DNA from: a virus
Virus record (IMG/VR): IMGVR_UViG_3300028027_000151
Location: 1-32,213 of that record
Reading direction: 5' to 3' (one strand)
DNA: 32,213 nucleotides
Part shown: positions 1 through 32,213 of the stretch, piece by piece
How positions within the stretch are numbered: position 1 is the first letter of the stretch
Layout: every line of letters starts with the position of its first letter
Notes under the pieces: generated by a model
Seen by the model: only the letters and a program-made list of their open reading frames with translations
Told to the model about the DNA's origin: nothing
Database searches by the model: none
Made by a program: the position numbers and the translations under genes

Positions 1-288
1 AAGAAAGGCCAGAATCATCGAAAGAATGGTCAGCCCATCCAAATCAGATTGGTCGATCAAGTGAACAATCCGAGACTATGGCCCACACCAGTGGCACGAA
101 TGTACAAAGACGGGGGAAGCCCTGCGGAATACGCCAGGAACGAGATACCCCTAGCGGCACAGGTTGGTGGGCCATTGAACCCAGAGTGGGTCGAGTGGCT
201 GATGGGGTGGCCGCAAGAGTGGACAGACTTAAAGCCATTGGCAACGGACAAGTTCCACAAGTGGTCGCAGCAGTCTGGAGGAAATTAA
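1..288 (+). CDS. Overlapping frame resembling an alternative methyltransferase C-terminus (partial)
   Basis: Frame 1 is also open from the window edge, to a TAA at 286-288. It reads LWPTPVARMYKDGGSP, then LNPEWVEWLMGWPQEWTDLK, then LATDKFHKW. The WPTP and LNPxWVEWLMGxP signatures are typical of the C-terminal part of other phage DNA cytosine methyltransferases. Both frames therefore look like genuine family sequence on the same DNA. Frame 1 has no motif X and does not couple to the next gene, so it is either a remnant or alternative C-terminus, or a product reached by frameshifting. A TTG at 49 is a possible internal start, but I see no convincing ribosome binding site. Confidence 0.35.
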   Translation, partial: KKGQNHRKNGQPIQIRLVDQVNNPRLWPTPVARMYKDGGSPAEYARNEIPLAAQVGGPLNPEWVEWLMGWPQEWTDLKPLATDKFHKWSQQSGGN

Positions 289-302
289 GTGAATCACTAT
301 GA
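1..302 (+). CDS. C5-cytosine DNA methyltransferase, C-terminal part (partial, frame 3)
   Basis: This is the C-terminal end of a phage cytosine-5 DNA methyltransferase that would modify phage DNA. The frame beginning at base 3 is open from the window edge to the TGA at 300-302. It contains WWAIEPRVGRVADGVAARV and then DRLKAIGNGQVPQV, which match motifs IX and X of the C5 family (the RLKAIGNGQVP signature). Its stop overlaps the ATG of the next gene as ATGA, as for most neighbouring genes, which favours this frame as the real one. The N-terminal part with the catalytic Cys motif is at the far right end of the window (31720-32213). The target-recognition part is short or lies across the join. 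A second open frame covers the same bases (see the next entry). Confidence 0.75.
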   Translation, partial: ERPESSKEWSAHPNQIGRSSEQSETMAHTSGTNVQRRGKPCGIRQERDTPSGTGWWAIEPRVGRVADGVAARVDRLKAIGNGQVPQVVAAVWRKLSESL

Positions 303-1887: not shown

Positions 1888-3105
1888 ATGCTAAAAATTG
1901 TGCAAAAGCCTGTAGATAAATTGATACCTTATGTCAACAACAGCCGCACCCACTCTGATGAGCAAATAGCCCAGATTGCCTCAAGCATCAAAGAATTCGG
2001 CTGGACTAACCCGATATTGGTAGATGGGGAGAACGGCATCATTGCAGGACATGGCAGGCTGATGGCAGCAAGAAAGCTGGGCTACAAAGAAGTTCCCACC
2101 ATCGAGTTAAAAGACCTGACAGAGACCCAGCGCAAGGCTTACATCATTGCCGACAACCGCCTGGCACTCAATGCAGGATGGGACAATGAAATGCTGACCA
2201 TAGAATTGAATGATCTATTGGCAGACGGGTTTGCGCTAGAAATCTTGGGCTTTGACACTAAGGAACTAAACGCCCTGCTAGAGCCAGAGGTAGTGGAAGG
2301 GCTGACAGACGAGGATGCCGTTCCTGACATTCCTGATGAGCCTAAGACCAAGTTAGGCGACATTTACCAACTAGGCAATCACCGCCTAATGTGTGGGGAC
2401 TCCACTAGCATTGACGCTGTTGACAAGTTGATGGATGGGCAGAAGGCCGATATGGTGTTTACCGACCCGCCTTATGGCGTGGCTTATGAAGGTGGACATA
2501 ATCAAAAGAAACGTAAAGGCATAATTGCTGATACTTTAGAAGGTGATGATCTAACAGGTTTGTTTTATGGTGCTTTAATGGCTGCTGTACCAAATACCAA
2601 GGATGGTGCGGCTTTTTATATTTGGTATGCCTCTGGCAAATCAATAGAAACTTATGCTGCATTATCAAAATTGCCACTAAAACTTAGGGCGGTAATTCAA
2701 TGGTACAAAGTAAAGTCTGGTCTTGGGGCTTTTATGTCTCAATATATTCCAAACTCCGAGCCATGTATGTATTTGCATAAAGACAAATGCTCTCCTGCAT
2801 GGTATGGCCCGACAAATGAAAAAACTGTTTGGGAATTAAAGAAAGAATCAAAAAATATTTATCATCCAACTCAGAAGCCTGTTGAATTGCCAGAAAGAGC
2901 AATAAATAATTCAAGTAAGGGTGGTGATTTAATCCTTGATCTTTTTGGTGGCTCTGGAAGCACATTAATTGCCTGTGAAAAAATTAATCGTCATGCAAGA
3001 TTGATGGAACTAGACCCCAAGTATTGCGATGTAATCGTTAAGCGTTGGGAAGACTTCACAGGCAAGAAAGCCGTTCTTTTGACAGAAACAGTAGAATCTG
3101 CTTAA
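1888..3105 (+). CDS. ParB-like nuclease domain fused to DNA methyltransferase (N6-adenine/N4-cytosine type)
   Basis: The 405-residue fusion protein has two parts. Residues ~10-75 form a ParB/sulfiredoxin-like domain, with LIPYVNNSRTHSDEQIAQIA and the IIAGHGRLMAARKLG motif. Residues ~155-395 form an amino-methyltransferase. Motif IV DPPY is at 193-196, and the AdoMet motif I FGGSGST at 353-359 follows HPTQKP at 326-331. This IV-before-I order is that of beta-class enzymes. Such fusions are common orphan methylases in phages and probably protect phage DNA from host restriction. GAGG at 1879-1882 is the ribosome binding site. The stretch 2490-2990, covering the region between motifs IV and I, is visibly more AT-rich than both flanks, suggesting exchange of the specificity region. 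No restriction endonuclease partner is present. Confidence 0.93.
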   Translation: MLKIVQKPVDKLIPYVNNSRTHSDEQIAQIASSIKEFGWTNPILVDGENGIIAGHGRLMAARKLGYKEVPTIELKDLTETQRKAYIIADNRLALNAGWDNEMLTIELNDLLADGFALEILGFDTKELNALLEPEVVEGLTDEDAVPDIPDEPKTKLGDIYQLGNHRLMCGDSTSIDAVDKLMDGQKADMVFTDPPYGVAYEGGHNQKKRKGIIADTLEGDDLTGLFYGALMAAVPNTKDGAAFYIWYASGKSIETYAALSKLPLKLRAVIQWYKVKSGLGAFMSQYIPNSEPCMYLHKDKCSPAWYGPTNEKTVWELKKESKNIYHPTQKPVELPERAINNSSKGGDLILDLFGGSGSTLIACEKINRHARLMELDPKYCDVIVKRWEDFTGKKAVLLTETVESA

Positions 3106-29873: not shown

Positions 29874-29966
29874 TCAGCCTCTCCATGCGAGCATTACGCC
29901 CCAACCACCAAAGATGATGATCGCCAATGTCCATTCGACAATTGTTGTGATGATCTTAGATTTCAT
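29874..29966 (-). CDS. Tiny single-pass membrane protein (30 aa)
   Basis: This short gene encodes MKSKIITTIVEWTLAIIIFG then GWGVMLAWRG: a positively charged start, one transmembrane helix, and a short charged tail. AAGGAAC lies 4 nt before its ATG. The gene starts inside the last codons of the upstream gene and stops 2 nt before the next ATG, which supports real translation. Function is unknown; such early phage peptides may alter the host membrane or exclude other phages. Confidence 0.5.
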   Translation of the reverse strand: MKSKIITTIVEWTLAIIIFGGWGVMLAWRG

Positions 29967-30228
29967 TTTGTTCCTTTAGCATACGAGCGTGGTGAATCTT
30001 GACTTCAGAAACAATGCGTTCAAATTCGGATGAGGACAGATCGCAAGAAATGTCATCACCCTTTTCGCTAAACACAAACACATCGTAGATTTCTGCTGAG
30101 TTGTGGTCATAGGGCAGATTGAATTCTGCTGGGTAGTAGTCATAACCGACCTTGACTTTCTCAAGGGTTGTGCCATCGTCATAAGTGACGAACTCATCAA
30201 AGTGGTAGTGAAGTTTGTAGTCAATCAT
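29956..30228 (-). CDS. First gene of the leftward early operon, unknown
   Basis: The 90-residue acidic protein reads MIDYKLHYHFDEFVTYDDGT, KVGYDYYPAEFNLPYDHNSA, then CDLSSSEFERIVSEVKIHHA. No family is recognised. AGGAAAG precedes its ATG and a sigma-70 promoter lies about 40 nt further up. Acidic, Tyr/Asp-rich small early proteins are sometimes DNA mimics that block host defence; this is only a possibility here. Confidence 0.6.
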   Translation of the reverse strand: MIDYKLHYHFDEFVTYDDGTTLEKVKVGYDYYPAEFNLPYDHNSAEIYDVFVFSEKGDDISCDLSSSEFERIVSEVKIHHARMLKEQNEI

Positions 30229-30271
30229 TTGCTTTCCTAAATAGACCCCGAGAAGTTCAGGGCATGGGGTG

Positions 30272-30301
30272 ACTATAACGCACCTTATATAACCAAGTCA
30301 A
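30272..30301 (-). promoter_or_regulatory. Sigma-70 promoter of the leftward recombination operon
   Basis: Read on the minus strand, TTGACT (bases 30301-30296) and TATAGT (30277-30272) are separated by 18 nt. Each matches five of six consensus bases. Transcription would start near 30265, giving a leader of about 37 nt before the ATG at 30228. The -10 lies inside a GGTG-N9-CACC inverted repeat (30268-30284) that could be a repressor site. Confidence 0.7.
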
Positions 30302-30311
30302 CTGTGGGGTT

Positions 30312-30325
30312 ATTAGCTAGCTAAT
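30312..30325. promoter_or_regulatory. 14-bp perfect palindrome, candidate Cro operator
   Basis: ATTAGCTAGCTAAT is a perfect palindrome lying between the two divergent promoters, just upstream of the TATAAT of the cro-like gene and 10 nt from the -35 of the leftward promoter. It is the expected size and place for a dimeric HTH repressor site controlling both directions. Confidence 0.5.
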
Positions 30326-30326
30326 G

Positions 30327-30332
30327 TATAAT
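30327..30332 (+). promoter_or_regulatory. -10 box of a probable leaderless cro-like transcript
   Basis: A perfect TATAAT at 30327-30332, preceded directly by TG, ends 6 nt before the ATG at 30339. Transcription would therefore start at or near the A of the start codon. No convincing -35 is seen at 16-19 nt. There is no Shine-Dalgarno before the ATG, in agreement with a leaderless message like lambda cI from PRM. Confidence 0.5.
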
Positions 30333-30338
30333 TTGCGT

Positions 30339-30494
30339 ATGGACAAAAATAAGTTTATTGCACTAGCTGGCTCACAGGATGAGCTTGCCAAGTTGTTGGG
30401 CATCAGCCAAGCGGCTGTATCCCAATGGAAAACTGTGCCTCAAGCAAGGGTTTGGCAATTAAAGTTGTTGCGGCCTGATTGGTTTTTGGATTAA
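30339..30494 (+). CDS. Cro-like helix-turn-helix repressor (51 aa)
   Basis: This very short gene encodes 51 residues with the HTH QDELAKLLGISQAAVSQWK at about 13-31. PQARVWQLKLLRPDWF follows, like the end of YdaS/Cro-type regulators (VPxxRVxQL). It lies at the start of the rightward replication genes, opposite the recombination operon, the usual place of cro. It would bind the palindromes in the divergent region and control early genes. No cI-like partner gene is visible in the window. Confidence 0.8.
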   Translation: MDKNKFIALAGSQDELAKLLGISQAAVSQWKTVPQARVWQLKLLRPDWFLD

Positions 30495-30514
30495 GATTGT
30501 TTGAAACACGGCTA

Positions 30515-30536
30515 GGTCTGAAGTCATGAGCAGACC
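30515..30536 (+). other. Inverted repeat in the leader of the replication genes
   Basis: GGTCTG (30515-30520) and CAGACC (30531-30536) form a perfect 6-bp stem with a 10-nt loop, 20 nt after the cro-like stop. No U-tract follows. It could be an RNA element for antitermination, a processing site or a partial terminator; the sequence alone does not decide. Confidence 0.35.
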
Positions 30537-30548
30537 GAAAAGAGTTAC

Positions 30549-30597
30549 CTCCCTCTCCTGCCGCAGTTTCTTTTAAGGGAGTATGAAAAGGCGAGTT
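30549..30597 (+). promoter_or_regulatory. Leader with anti-Shine-Dalgarno pairing before the O-like gene
   Basis: CTCCCT (30549-30554) is the exact complement of AGGGAG (30576-30581), so an RNA stem could form over the ribosome binding region. AGGGAG is only 1 nt from the ATG at 30583, too close for efficient use. AAAAGGCGAG lies at better spacing for ATG 30598, which starts the family-typical MHYYQF. A 16-codon frame (30526-30576) also ends in this leader. Confidence 0.35.
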
Positions 30598-31353
30598 ATG
30601 CATTATTACCAGTTTCACATTGGTGACTACATGAGTCACACCAGGCATCTTTCATTGATGGAAGATTTAGCCTATCGCAGACTTCTGGACTACTACTTTT
30701 TGCACGAACAACCAATTAAGCACAGAGAAGCAGCCAGACAAGTTGGCATGAAAGAGCATGAAGAAGATGTTTTGACAGTCTTAAATGAATTCTTTTTGTC
30801 AACAGAAGATGGCTTTGTAAACCCAAGGGCTGACAAGGAAATCAAGCAATACAAAGAGTTTGCAGAGGCTGGCAAACGTGGGGCGGCTAAGAGGTGGGGA
30901 ACACCCCCCAATGGGGAGGCTAATAGCCCCCCTAATGCTACCCCAATAGCAACCAATAACCATAAACCAATAACCAATAACCATAAACCAAAGAAAGAGA
31001 AAGCAACTATCGTTGCTTGTCCCCCTGATGTTTCTGAGCAAGTTTGGAATGATTGGTTGCAACTCAGGAAAACAAAAAAAGCCTCTGTGACCGAAACAGT
31101 GCTTAAAGGCGCAAGGTCTGAGGCCAACAAGATTGGTTGGTCACTTGAGCAGTTTTTGATTGAATGGTGTACCCGTGGCAGCCAAGGCTTGAAAGCTGAA
31201 TGGCTAAAAGAAAAACTCACCAAATCCGAAGAACGCCAAAACGTGATGGCAGAGTTGACTAGGGGCAAATCAATTCCTAAAACGCCCTTTTGGGCTAAAC
31301 CTGAAACCATAGTACTGGAGGCACAAGATGTGGAACGAAAACGACTTTTGTGA
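30598..31353 (+). CDS. Replication initiator-like protein (DUF1376, lambda O position)
   Basis: The 251-residue protein starts MHYYQFHIGDYMSHTRHLSL then MEDLAYRRLLDYYFLHEQPI, the DUF1376 domain of phage replication proteins (winged-helix-like). A linker at about residues 94-131 is rich in Asn, Pro and Lys and includes NNHKPITNNHKPKKEK. Its DNA carries tandem 7-bp repeats, as lambda O carries the origin. The C-terminal domain (VWNDWLQLRKTKKASVTETV, GWSLEQFLIEWCTRGSQGLK) resembles other phage initiators. It is followed by a P-like gene with 26-nt overlap, supporting an O/P-type replication pair. A start at 30583 would add five residues. Confidence 0.85.
   Translation: MHYYQFHIGDYMSHTRHLSLMEDLAYRRLLDYYFLHEQPIKHREAARQVGMKEHEEDVLTVLNEFFLSTEDGFVNPRADKEIKQYKEFAEAGKRGAAKRWGTPPNGEANSPPNATPIATNNHKPITNNHKPKKEKATIVACPPDVSEQVWNDWLQLRKTKKASVTETVLKGARSEANKIGWSLEQFLIEWCTRGSQGLKAEWLKEKLTKSEERQNVMAELTRGKSIPKTPFWAKPETIVLEAQDVERKRLL
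30913..30932. other. G/C-rich hairpin beside the iteron array
   Basis: GGGG (30913-30916) and GGCT (30918-30921), separated by a bulged A, can pair with AGCC (30925-30928) and CCCC (30929-30932) over a 3-nt loop. It lies 20 bp before the 7-bp iterons within the replication gene and could be part of the origin structure. Confidence 0.35.
30952..30993 (+). repeat. 7-bp iteron array inside the replication gene, candidate origin
   Basis: Six tandem 7-mers run ACCAATA, ACCATAA, ACCAATA, ACCAATA, ACCATAA, ACCAAAG. Equivalently, the 19-mer AACCAATAACCATAAACCA occurs at 30951-30969 and again at 30972-30990, with a period of 21 bp (two helical turns). The array encodes the NNHKP repeats of the linker. 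Iterons within the initiator gene are the arrangement of lambda ori, so this is the best origin candidate in the window. Confidence 0.6.
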
Positions 31354-31723
31354 TCCAGACTCAGGTTTTGATTACATCTTTGGAATGATGAACGCCATTT
31401 ACGGCTCAAGGTTCATCACGCATTGGCAAGATGTTGACCCCAACCTTGTCAGACAGACTTGGAAGCAATATGTTGGCAGATTCCTGACCTACAAGCCAAG
31501 CCTAGATTTTGCGCTTGGCAAGCTGGACAAAGACTTTCCACCGAGCGCCATTGCTTTTCGGGATATGTGCAATCAAGGCCCATCAATCCCTGTTAAGCCG
31601 CCAACTACAGTTCTGATTGAGCGCAAGAAAACAATCCATGAGCAGATTGAAAGCGAAAGAATCAGGGCTGAAGCGTTGGCGAAATTAGCAGAATTAAAAA
31701 AACAATATGGTGGGAGAACATGA
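31328..31723 (+). CDS. Lambda P-like replication protein (helicase loader type), short
   Basis: The 131-residue protein has FDYIFGMMNAIYGSRFITHW, QTWKQYVGRFLTYKPSLDFA and LDKDFPPSAIAFRDMCNQGP, which match the core of lambda replication protein P-like proteins. Those recruit the host DnaB helicase to the origin. It lacks the longer N- and C-terminal parts of lambda P (233 residues). The C-terminal end is helical and charged (EQIESERIRAEALAKLAELK). It overlaps the O-like gene by 26 nt and the methyltransferase by ATGA, so it is co-translated. Confidence 0.8.
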   Translation: MWNENDFCDPDSGFDYIFGMMNAIYGSRFITHWQDVDPNLVRQTWKQYVGRFLTYKPSLDFALGKLDKDFPPSAIAFRDMCNQGPSIPVKPPTTVLIERKKTIHEQIESERIRAEALAKLAELKKQYGGRT

Positions 31724-32213
31724 ATGAGTTGGCTCTTTTCGCAGGCGCTGGTGGAGGAATACTTGGTGGACACCTCCTTGGTTGGAGAACAGTCTGTGCA
31801 GTCGAATGGGAAGCCTACCCAGCAAGCGTACTGTGCGCCCGACAAAATGACGGACTTCTCCCGCCTTTCCCGATTTGGGATGACGTACAAACTTTTGACG
31901 GAAACCCGTGGCGAGGAATTGTTGACGTTGTATCTGGCGGCTTTCCCTGTACGGACATTTCCATCGCAGGCCGAGGCGCAGGGCTTGACGGAGAAAGTTC
32001 CTCAATGTGGTATCACATGGCGAGGGTGGTTAGCGAAGTTCGACCCAGATTCGTATTCGTGGAAAACAGCCCAATGCTCATTCATCGAGGAATCGGGCGA
32101 GTGCTTGGAGACCTTTCCAGCCTCGGGTATGACACGAGGTGGACTGTTATGGGAGCAAACGAGGTCGGAGCGCCCCACCAAAGGGATAGAACGTGGATTG
32201 TGGCGCACTCCAG
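31720..32213 (+). CDS. C5-cytosine DNA methyltransferase, N-terminal part (runs off window)
   Basis: The open frame encodes 164 residues to the window end. AdoMet motif I is LFAGAGGGILGG at residues 6-17. The catalytic loop GGFPCTDIS has C77. Motif VI is FVENSP at 113-118 (ENS rather than ENV), and motif VIII is QRDRTWIVA at 154-162. These are all the N-terminal motifs of the family in the correct order, so the enzyme should be active if joined to its C-terminal part at the left edge of the window. ATGA overlap with the P-like gene fixes the start. The frame at the last base does not match the left edge by simple joining. Confidence 0.9.
   Translation, partial: MNELALFAGAGGGILGGHLLGWRTVCAVEWEAYPASVLCARQNDGLLPPFPIWDDVQTFDGNPWRGIVDVVSGGFPCTDISIAGRGAGLDGESSSMWYHMARVVSEVRPRFVFVENSPMLIHRGIGRVLGDLSSLGYDTRWTVMGANEVGAPHQRDRTWIVAHS

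Follow-up and report, generated by a model that had tools for sequence, protein, structure and literature searches.

Evidence for a two-subunit phage cytosine methyltransferase that is dual-coded and probably phase-variable

Layout and motif content of the two frames

The window, i.e. the whole stretch of 32,213 bases analysed here, is an entire virus record of a phage in whose genome a P22-like portal, RusA and NinB are encoded. A C5-cytosine methyltransferase (C5-MTase) gene occupies both of its ends, with the N-terminal two thirds at 31720-32213 and the C-terminal third at 1-302 (the gene and its features listed here lie on the plus strand). Two reading frames, A and B, are open throughout both parts. 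Frame A starts with the ATG at 31720, carries motifs I-VIII up to 32213 and resumes past a missing junction at base 3, from where its C-terminal part (frame 3, 3-302, DRLKAIGNGQVPQV) runs through a linker and motif X to the stop at 300-302. Frame B has its own ATG at 31724, overlapping that of A in ATGAATG, and its N-terminal part (31724-32213) is continued by frame 1 at 1-288 (WPTPVARMYKDGG and LNPEWVEWLMGWP), which holds a WPTP target-recognition region and motif IX and ends with the stop at 286-288. A possible common ribosome-binding site, GGTGGGAG, judged from sequence, is located upstream of both ATGs at 31709-31716. The first-pass annotation had noted that both frames are open to the window edge over 1-302, and this openness extends over the entire gene. 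Elsewhere in the window, this phage has a second methyltransferase, encoded at 1888-3105, in which a ParB-N domain is joined to an N4/N6 DNA methyltransferase (PF02195 and PF01555).

Joining A to A and B to B across the window ends requires, by simple arithmetic, that the number of missing bases is 2 modulo 3. The left flank of the junction (32200-32213) ends in GTGGCGCACTCCAG, which in relatives is followed by ACAC, 10-17 G's and ACATCTGG, leading into base 1. In the relative L008 the junction is 32 nt long (ACAC-G13-ACATCTGGACTCCTC, including 13 G's), and downstream of it a 99.5% match to the window extends over 1,964 nt in the relative L006. Taken together with the arithmetic, these relatives make it most likely that the window represents a single circularly permuted phage genome, opened inside the C5-MTase gene at the G run. 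Plain circular closure without missing bases was rejected, since A would then fall into a stopped frame and the relatives indicate that about 32 nt are missing.

The N-terminal part of frame A (31720-32213) was recognised by PF00145 (E=3.5e-29) and phrog_363 (E=4.6e-54), and the frame A profile matched the HhaI methylase in the PDB (E=2.6e-19). Its sequence and the HhaI alignment place motif I (LFAGAGGG) at 31735-31758, catalytic motif IV (GGFPC) at 31936-31950, motif VI (ENS) at 32062-32070 and motif VIII (QRDR) at 32179-32190. All of the motifs by which a C5-MTase is identified are present: I, IV (PC), VI (EN), VIII (QxRxR) and X (GN.vP; here RLKAIGNGQVP, 225-257) in frame A, and IX (LNPEWVEWLMGWPQEWTDL, 175-231) in frame B. 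Motif IX aligns with LNAAFAEWMMGLPDGH of the single-chain methyltransferase Lton gp60, motif X begins on its last bases in the other frame, and both are under dual constraint. Upstream of motif IX, the recognition region of B contains a WPTP repeat (79-90) like those of the single-chain actinophage C5-MTases L359 and L361.

A separate homolog search with each frame, as had been proposed in the first-pass annotation, returned protein families for both of them: phrog_32758 (E=4.5e-16) and also phrog_363 for the C-terminal part of A, phrog_1008 (E=2.1e-11) for the N-terminal part of B, and phrog_26627 (E=2.3e-15) and also phrog_1008 for the C-terminal part of B. Pfam recognised neither of the two C-terminal pieces at 1-302. 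Frame B was recognised by no Pfam, NCBIfam or PDB profile, the PDB profile search giving chance matches only, and it begins with a conserved N-terminal extension of roughly 160 residues. AlphaFold modelling of B alone (78 homologs) reached a mean pLDDT of 57.7, too poor for a fold search, and that of a natural chain joining the N half of A to the C half of B (10 near-identical rows) was unusable, with a pLDDT of 32.9. The structure models therefore gave no help, and it is from its sequence that frame B appears to be the carrier of the recognition domain.

The partition of motif X to A and motif IX to B was found in 149 loci, and many bacterial groups have similar A/B pairs in their prophages and genome contigs. 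A C5 methyltransferase requires its recognition region, motif IX and motif X together. As the first two are situated in B and the third in A, the frames would give complementary subunits, which is at odds with the initial proposal that they encode two alternative ends of the same enzyme.

Coding signal and selection in both frames

Loci were gathered by frame A alone, which left frame B unselected. B is stop-free over 160 codons in 70 of the 72 distinct loci found in this way, while synonymous resampling predicts 3-4 stops and frame C averages about 9; stop codons in relatives, which had been named as a reason to discard a frame, are therefore almost absent. B is also open over the N half in all 66 prophage and genome loci (66/66), and an ATG of its own opens B in 246 of 246 loci. 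B sequences are 61% identical in pairwise comparison, against 38% once the synonymous codons of A are redrawn. We further sorted substitutions by their effect in both frames, pooling pairs of related sequences, which are non-independent and carry no formal probabilities. In the N half, changes silent in both frames occurred at 0.210 and those silent in A and missense in B at 0.084, while changes silent in A that introduce a stop in B were seen in 0 of 340,503 opportunities. In the adjoining single-frame control genes RusA and NinB, examined in the same type of shadow frame, missense changes were not depleted and stops occurred at approximately 0.07, and in the other frame of the same MTase gene stops occurred at 0.052. 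The contrast between B and these controls is clear. Purifying selection acts on both frames over the same bases, and the comparison of silent with missense change per frame that had been called for to examine overprinting thus finds both frames constrained. Overprinting itself, one of the readings offered at first, is borne out, both frames being real conserved coding sequence.

Annotation in the records examined gives only one frame of the pair, namely B as a hypothetical protein in PP083311 and A in OQ471969. Among the phage records L164-L170, B is annotated in one phage (PP083311), A in the rest, and both frames in none.

Constraint shifts along the gene, passing from A in the N half to B in the recognition region and to both frames at motifs IX and X. 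In the N half A is tightly and B moderately constrained. At 3-167, changes that are missense in A and silent in B occurred at 0.094 versus 0.005 for those silent in A and missense in B, which makes B about 19-fold more constrained than A; changes giving a stop in A and silent in B were seen in 0 of 3,142 cases, which means that A must remain open there with its residues free, as in a linker. At 168-287, which covers motifs IX and X, both frames are held equally (0.024 and 0.021, versus 0.184 for doubly silent changes). This is the pattern expected if A consists of motifs I-VIII, a linker and motif X, and B of an extension, the recognition region and motif IX.

The openness of B could be attributed to the composition or codon bias of A, i.e. 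B could be a shadow frame that merely happens to be free of stops. A GC content near 47% and the glycine-rich motifs of A do lower the number of stops somewhat, and per locus 1-4% of synonymous resamplings contain no stop. However, missense changes in B are depleted along with stops, the effect is absent in the control genes and in the same gene's other frame, and at 3-167 it is B that is conserved and not A, which makes this explanation hardly credible. Alternatively, B could be a real overprinted protein with an unrelated function, acting for instance in regulation or against restriction. This would be in accordance with its lack of a curated family match, with an N-terminal extension that has no known homolog and with the poor structure prediction. 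Against it, the C half of B aligns with the recognition region and motif IX of single-chain C5-MTases, phrog_1008 bridges to actinophage C-terminal halves that hold both IX and X, frame A has no motif IX, and residues of A are free exactly where B is constrained; we find an unrelated function very unlikely. A dual-coded, two-subunit C5-cytosine methyltransferase is the highly probable reading, in which the two chains would form an active heterodimer.

Poly-G tracts in relatives

A poly-G tract occupies one of three positions in the gene of relatives; the window itself has none. Relatives of the window type have 10-17 G's exactly where the window lacks its junction, after motif VIII and before the recognition region; in others the G runs are situated at about codon 16 or 83 of A instead. 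Pattern scans gave 57, 98 and 22 contigs with a tract at the three sites, and the tract is absent in most loci. Runs of at least 8 G or C number 40 in 132.7 kb of the gene compared with 3 in 438.9 kb of its flanks. Reading phases at the junction site are about equal (20/15/14; these counts exclude the first class II tract pattern, which fixed the phase). Near-identical contig pairs differ by 1-2 G's in the tract, and this tract difference accounts for the only gaps between L424 and L512 (9,820 bp, 1 mismatch), between L468 and L517 (6,668 bp, 10 mismatches) and between L464 and L474 (5,928 bp, 0 mismatches). A hypervariable simple-sequence tract within a reading frame, one feature of a phase-variable contingency gene, is thus found in the relatives and not in the window.

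The close relative L050 is 93% identical to the window over 30235-32201; its recognition region, however, differs, and its tract occupies the second site. When L050 and L052 are compared with the window at 29955-32201 and 176-1382, the flanks are similar and the recognition region does not match, which resembles the swap of a dual-coded recognition module. In L348 (2501-3484), a genome locus in a Gallionella MAG, a 9-G tract lies about 249 nt into the gene with the frames crossed, apparently in an off phase. L300 has a 10-G run about 648 nt after the start of A, a fourth position in the gene. L499 (IMGVR_UViG_2511231094_000004) carries a 9-G tract and its identifier looks like that of an isolate genome, possibly a culturable one.

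Slippage during replication would alter the tract by 1-2 G's and re-register both frames at once. In one phase A would be continued by A and B by B, and the enzyme would be on. The other two phases would join the N half of A to the C half of B or the N half of B to the C half of A, and because such crossed chains have no complete motif set these phases are probably off. As a likely benefit, modification of phage DNA would be turned on and off at random to counter host restriction, and a single slip would change two genes. Phase variation of the two-subunit enzyme seems moderately likely to us, the switching being suggested by the tract lengths and phases. A three-position switch that re-pairs protein halves, with crossed chains that are functional in their own right, for example with an altered target specificity or as an inhibitor, is quite unlikely.

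These tract lengths derive from metagenome assemblies, in which long G runs are error-prone, and the tract could be real with its length differences resulting from sequencing or assembly error. Contigs often stop at the tract, as the window does, L034 turns to garbage beyond it, and runs of 13-15 G's are difficult for short reads. On the other hand, identical lengths recur across different metagenomes (11 in L391, L400 and L416; 15 in both L424 and L445), short tracts vary as well (9 vs 8), and the tracts are found at three separate sites of one gene and rarely elsewhere, so error as the sole source of variation is unlikely. Slippage on the long G runs could take place during transcription or translation as well, and A and B could then be alternative C-termini produced by transcriptional slippage or programmed ribosomal frameshifting, giving two enzymes with two specificities. 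The start of A indeed reads into the recognition region and motif IX of B in about a third of tract-bearing contigs, and uniform phases are expected if tract length is unimportant. However, the ATG of B is conserved in all 246 loci, its N half is conserved and under selection, the tract is missing from most loci and a chain of A's N half with B's C half would be without motif X. We consider alternative C-termini distinctly unlikely, and the frameshifting that had been invoked for two specificities is not needed, given that B has its own start. Frame switching, which had also been put forward, does occur in relatives by way of the poly-G tract; its more likely effect is to disrupt the pair, not to create a second enzyme.

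The proposed enzyme and its relatives

Taken as a whole, the data most probably describe a two-subunit cytosine methyltransferase of phages that is dual-coded and probably also phase-variable. In the proposed enzyme, A would be an alpha-like subunit in which motifs I-VIII, for AdoMet binding and catalysis, are followed by a free linker and by motif X, and B, starting 4 nt after A in the +1 frame, a beta-like subunit with the N-terminal extension, the WPTP recognition region and motif IX. Translation of both chains would begin at ATGAATG, possibly with a single ribosome-binding site serving the two, and the chains would assemble into one active C5-methyltransferase acting on phage DNA. Orphan phage methyltransferases have an anti-restriction role, from which we infer that modification of phage DNA by this enzyme most likely counters host restriction.

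In M.EcoHK31I, too, the gene of the large subunit contains the small subunit in a different frame. The published description of this natural two-subunit C5-methyltransferase (recognising YGGCCR) assigns motifs I-VIII and X to the large and motif IX to the small subunit (PMC3404938), which is the same split as that of the window gene, so the two-subunit principle was already known. The likeness is drawn from the published description, in which the recognition region is predicted in the large subunit, whereas selection places it in B in the window gene. Further differences are that B covers the whole gene from 4 nt after the start of A, that relatives carry poly-G tracts and that, in contrast to M.EcoHK31I, no restriction enzyme was seen adjoining the MTase gene. 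In M.AquI, another two-subunit C5-methyltransferase, the motifs are split over two polypeptides (PMC3404938). It is resembled by gp92/gp91 of actinophage Blue7, with I-VIII in A and the recognition region, IX and X in B, while in the window gene motif X is in A, apart from IX, and the subunits overlap completely. Slipped-strand homopolymer tracts inside methyltransferase genes are known from the phasevarions of bacterial pathogens (PMC3711429); these are bacterial, mainly of type III or type I and confined to one frame, whereas here a phage tract shifts two overlapping genes together. The whole-gene overlap and the poly-G tract at one of three sites both look new; among open-licence papers, no description in phages was found of either of them or of a recognition region placed in B.

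In the single-chain actinophage methyltransferases L358, L359 and L361, one frame holds motifs I-VIII together with EWM-G and GN-V motifs, and two of the three have LPTP repeats. Among such single-chain proteins of actinophages, prophi91-1 gp16, Lton gp60 and Rabbitrun gp78 are homologous to the N half of A and the C half of B, with colinear motifs I-VIII, (L/W)PTP repeats in two of the three, EWM(M/Q)G as motif IX and GN(G/A)V as motif X, but unlike the window gene they consist of one frame and one chain. The A profile matches the N half of Lton gp60 (E = 1.6e-32), and the B profile matches the same protein with LNPEWVEWLMGWP aligned to LNAAFAEWMMGLP (E = 1e-6). The A chain of Blue7 and Vash stops after motif VIII, and B comprises the recognition region, IX and X; phrog_116 spans both the N-terminal part of A (positions 212-392) and Blue7 gp91 (381-491). 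Single-chain, split and fully overlapped forms therefore all exist and are available to illustrate how an enzyme is split into overlapping subunits, the last form being a large and widespread case of one stretch of DNA encoding two halves of one enzyme that would interact. The hidden HNH insertion of actinophage methylases (PMC11855218) was considered as a counterpart of this overlap and rejected as a different thing. The prophage of E. coli PT62 has a tract-free relative of the gene (L362, 4001-4738) and, at L362 1043-2029, a second, distant C5-methyltransferase, which likewise has a long overlapping +1 frame that contains WPTP repeats and NPAHSRWLMGLP, and the overlap may therefore occur in more than one methyltransferase lineage.
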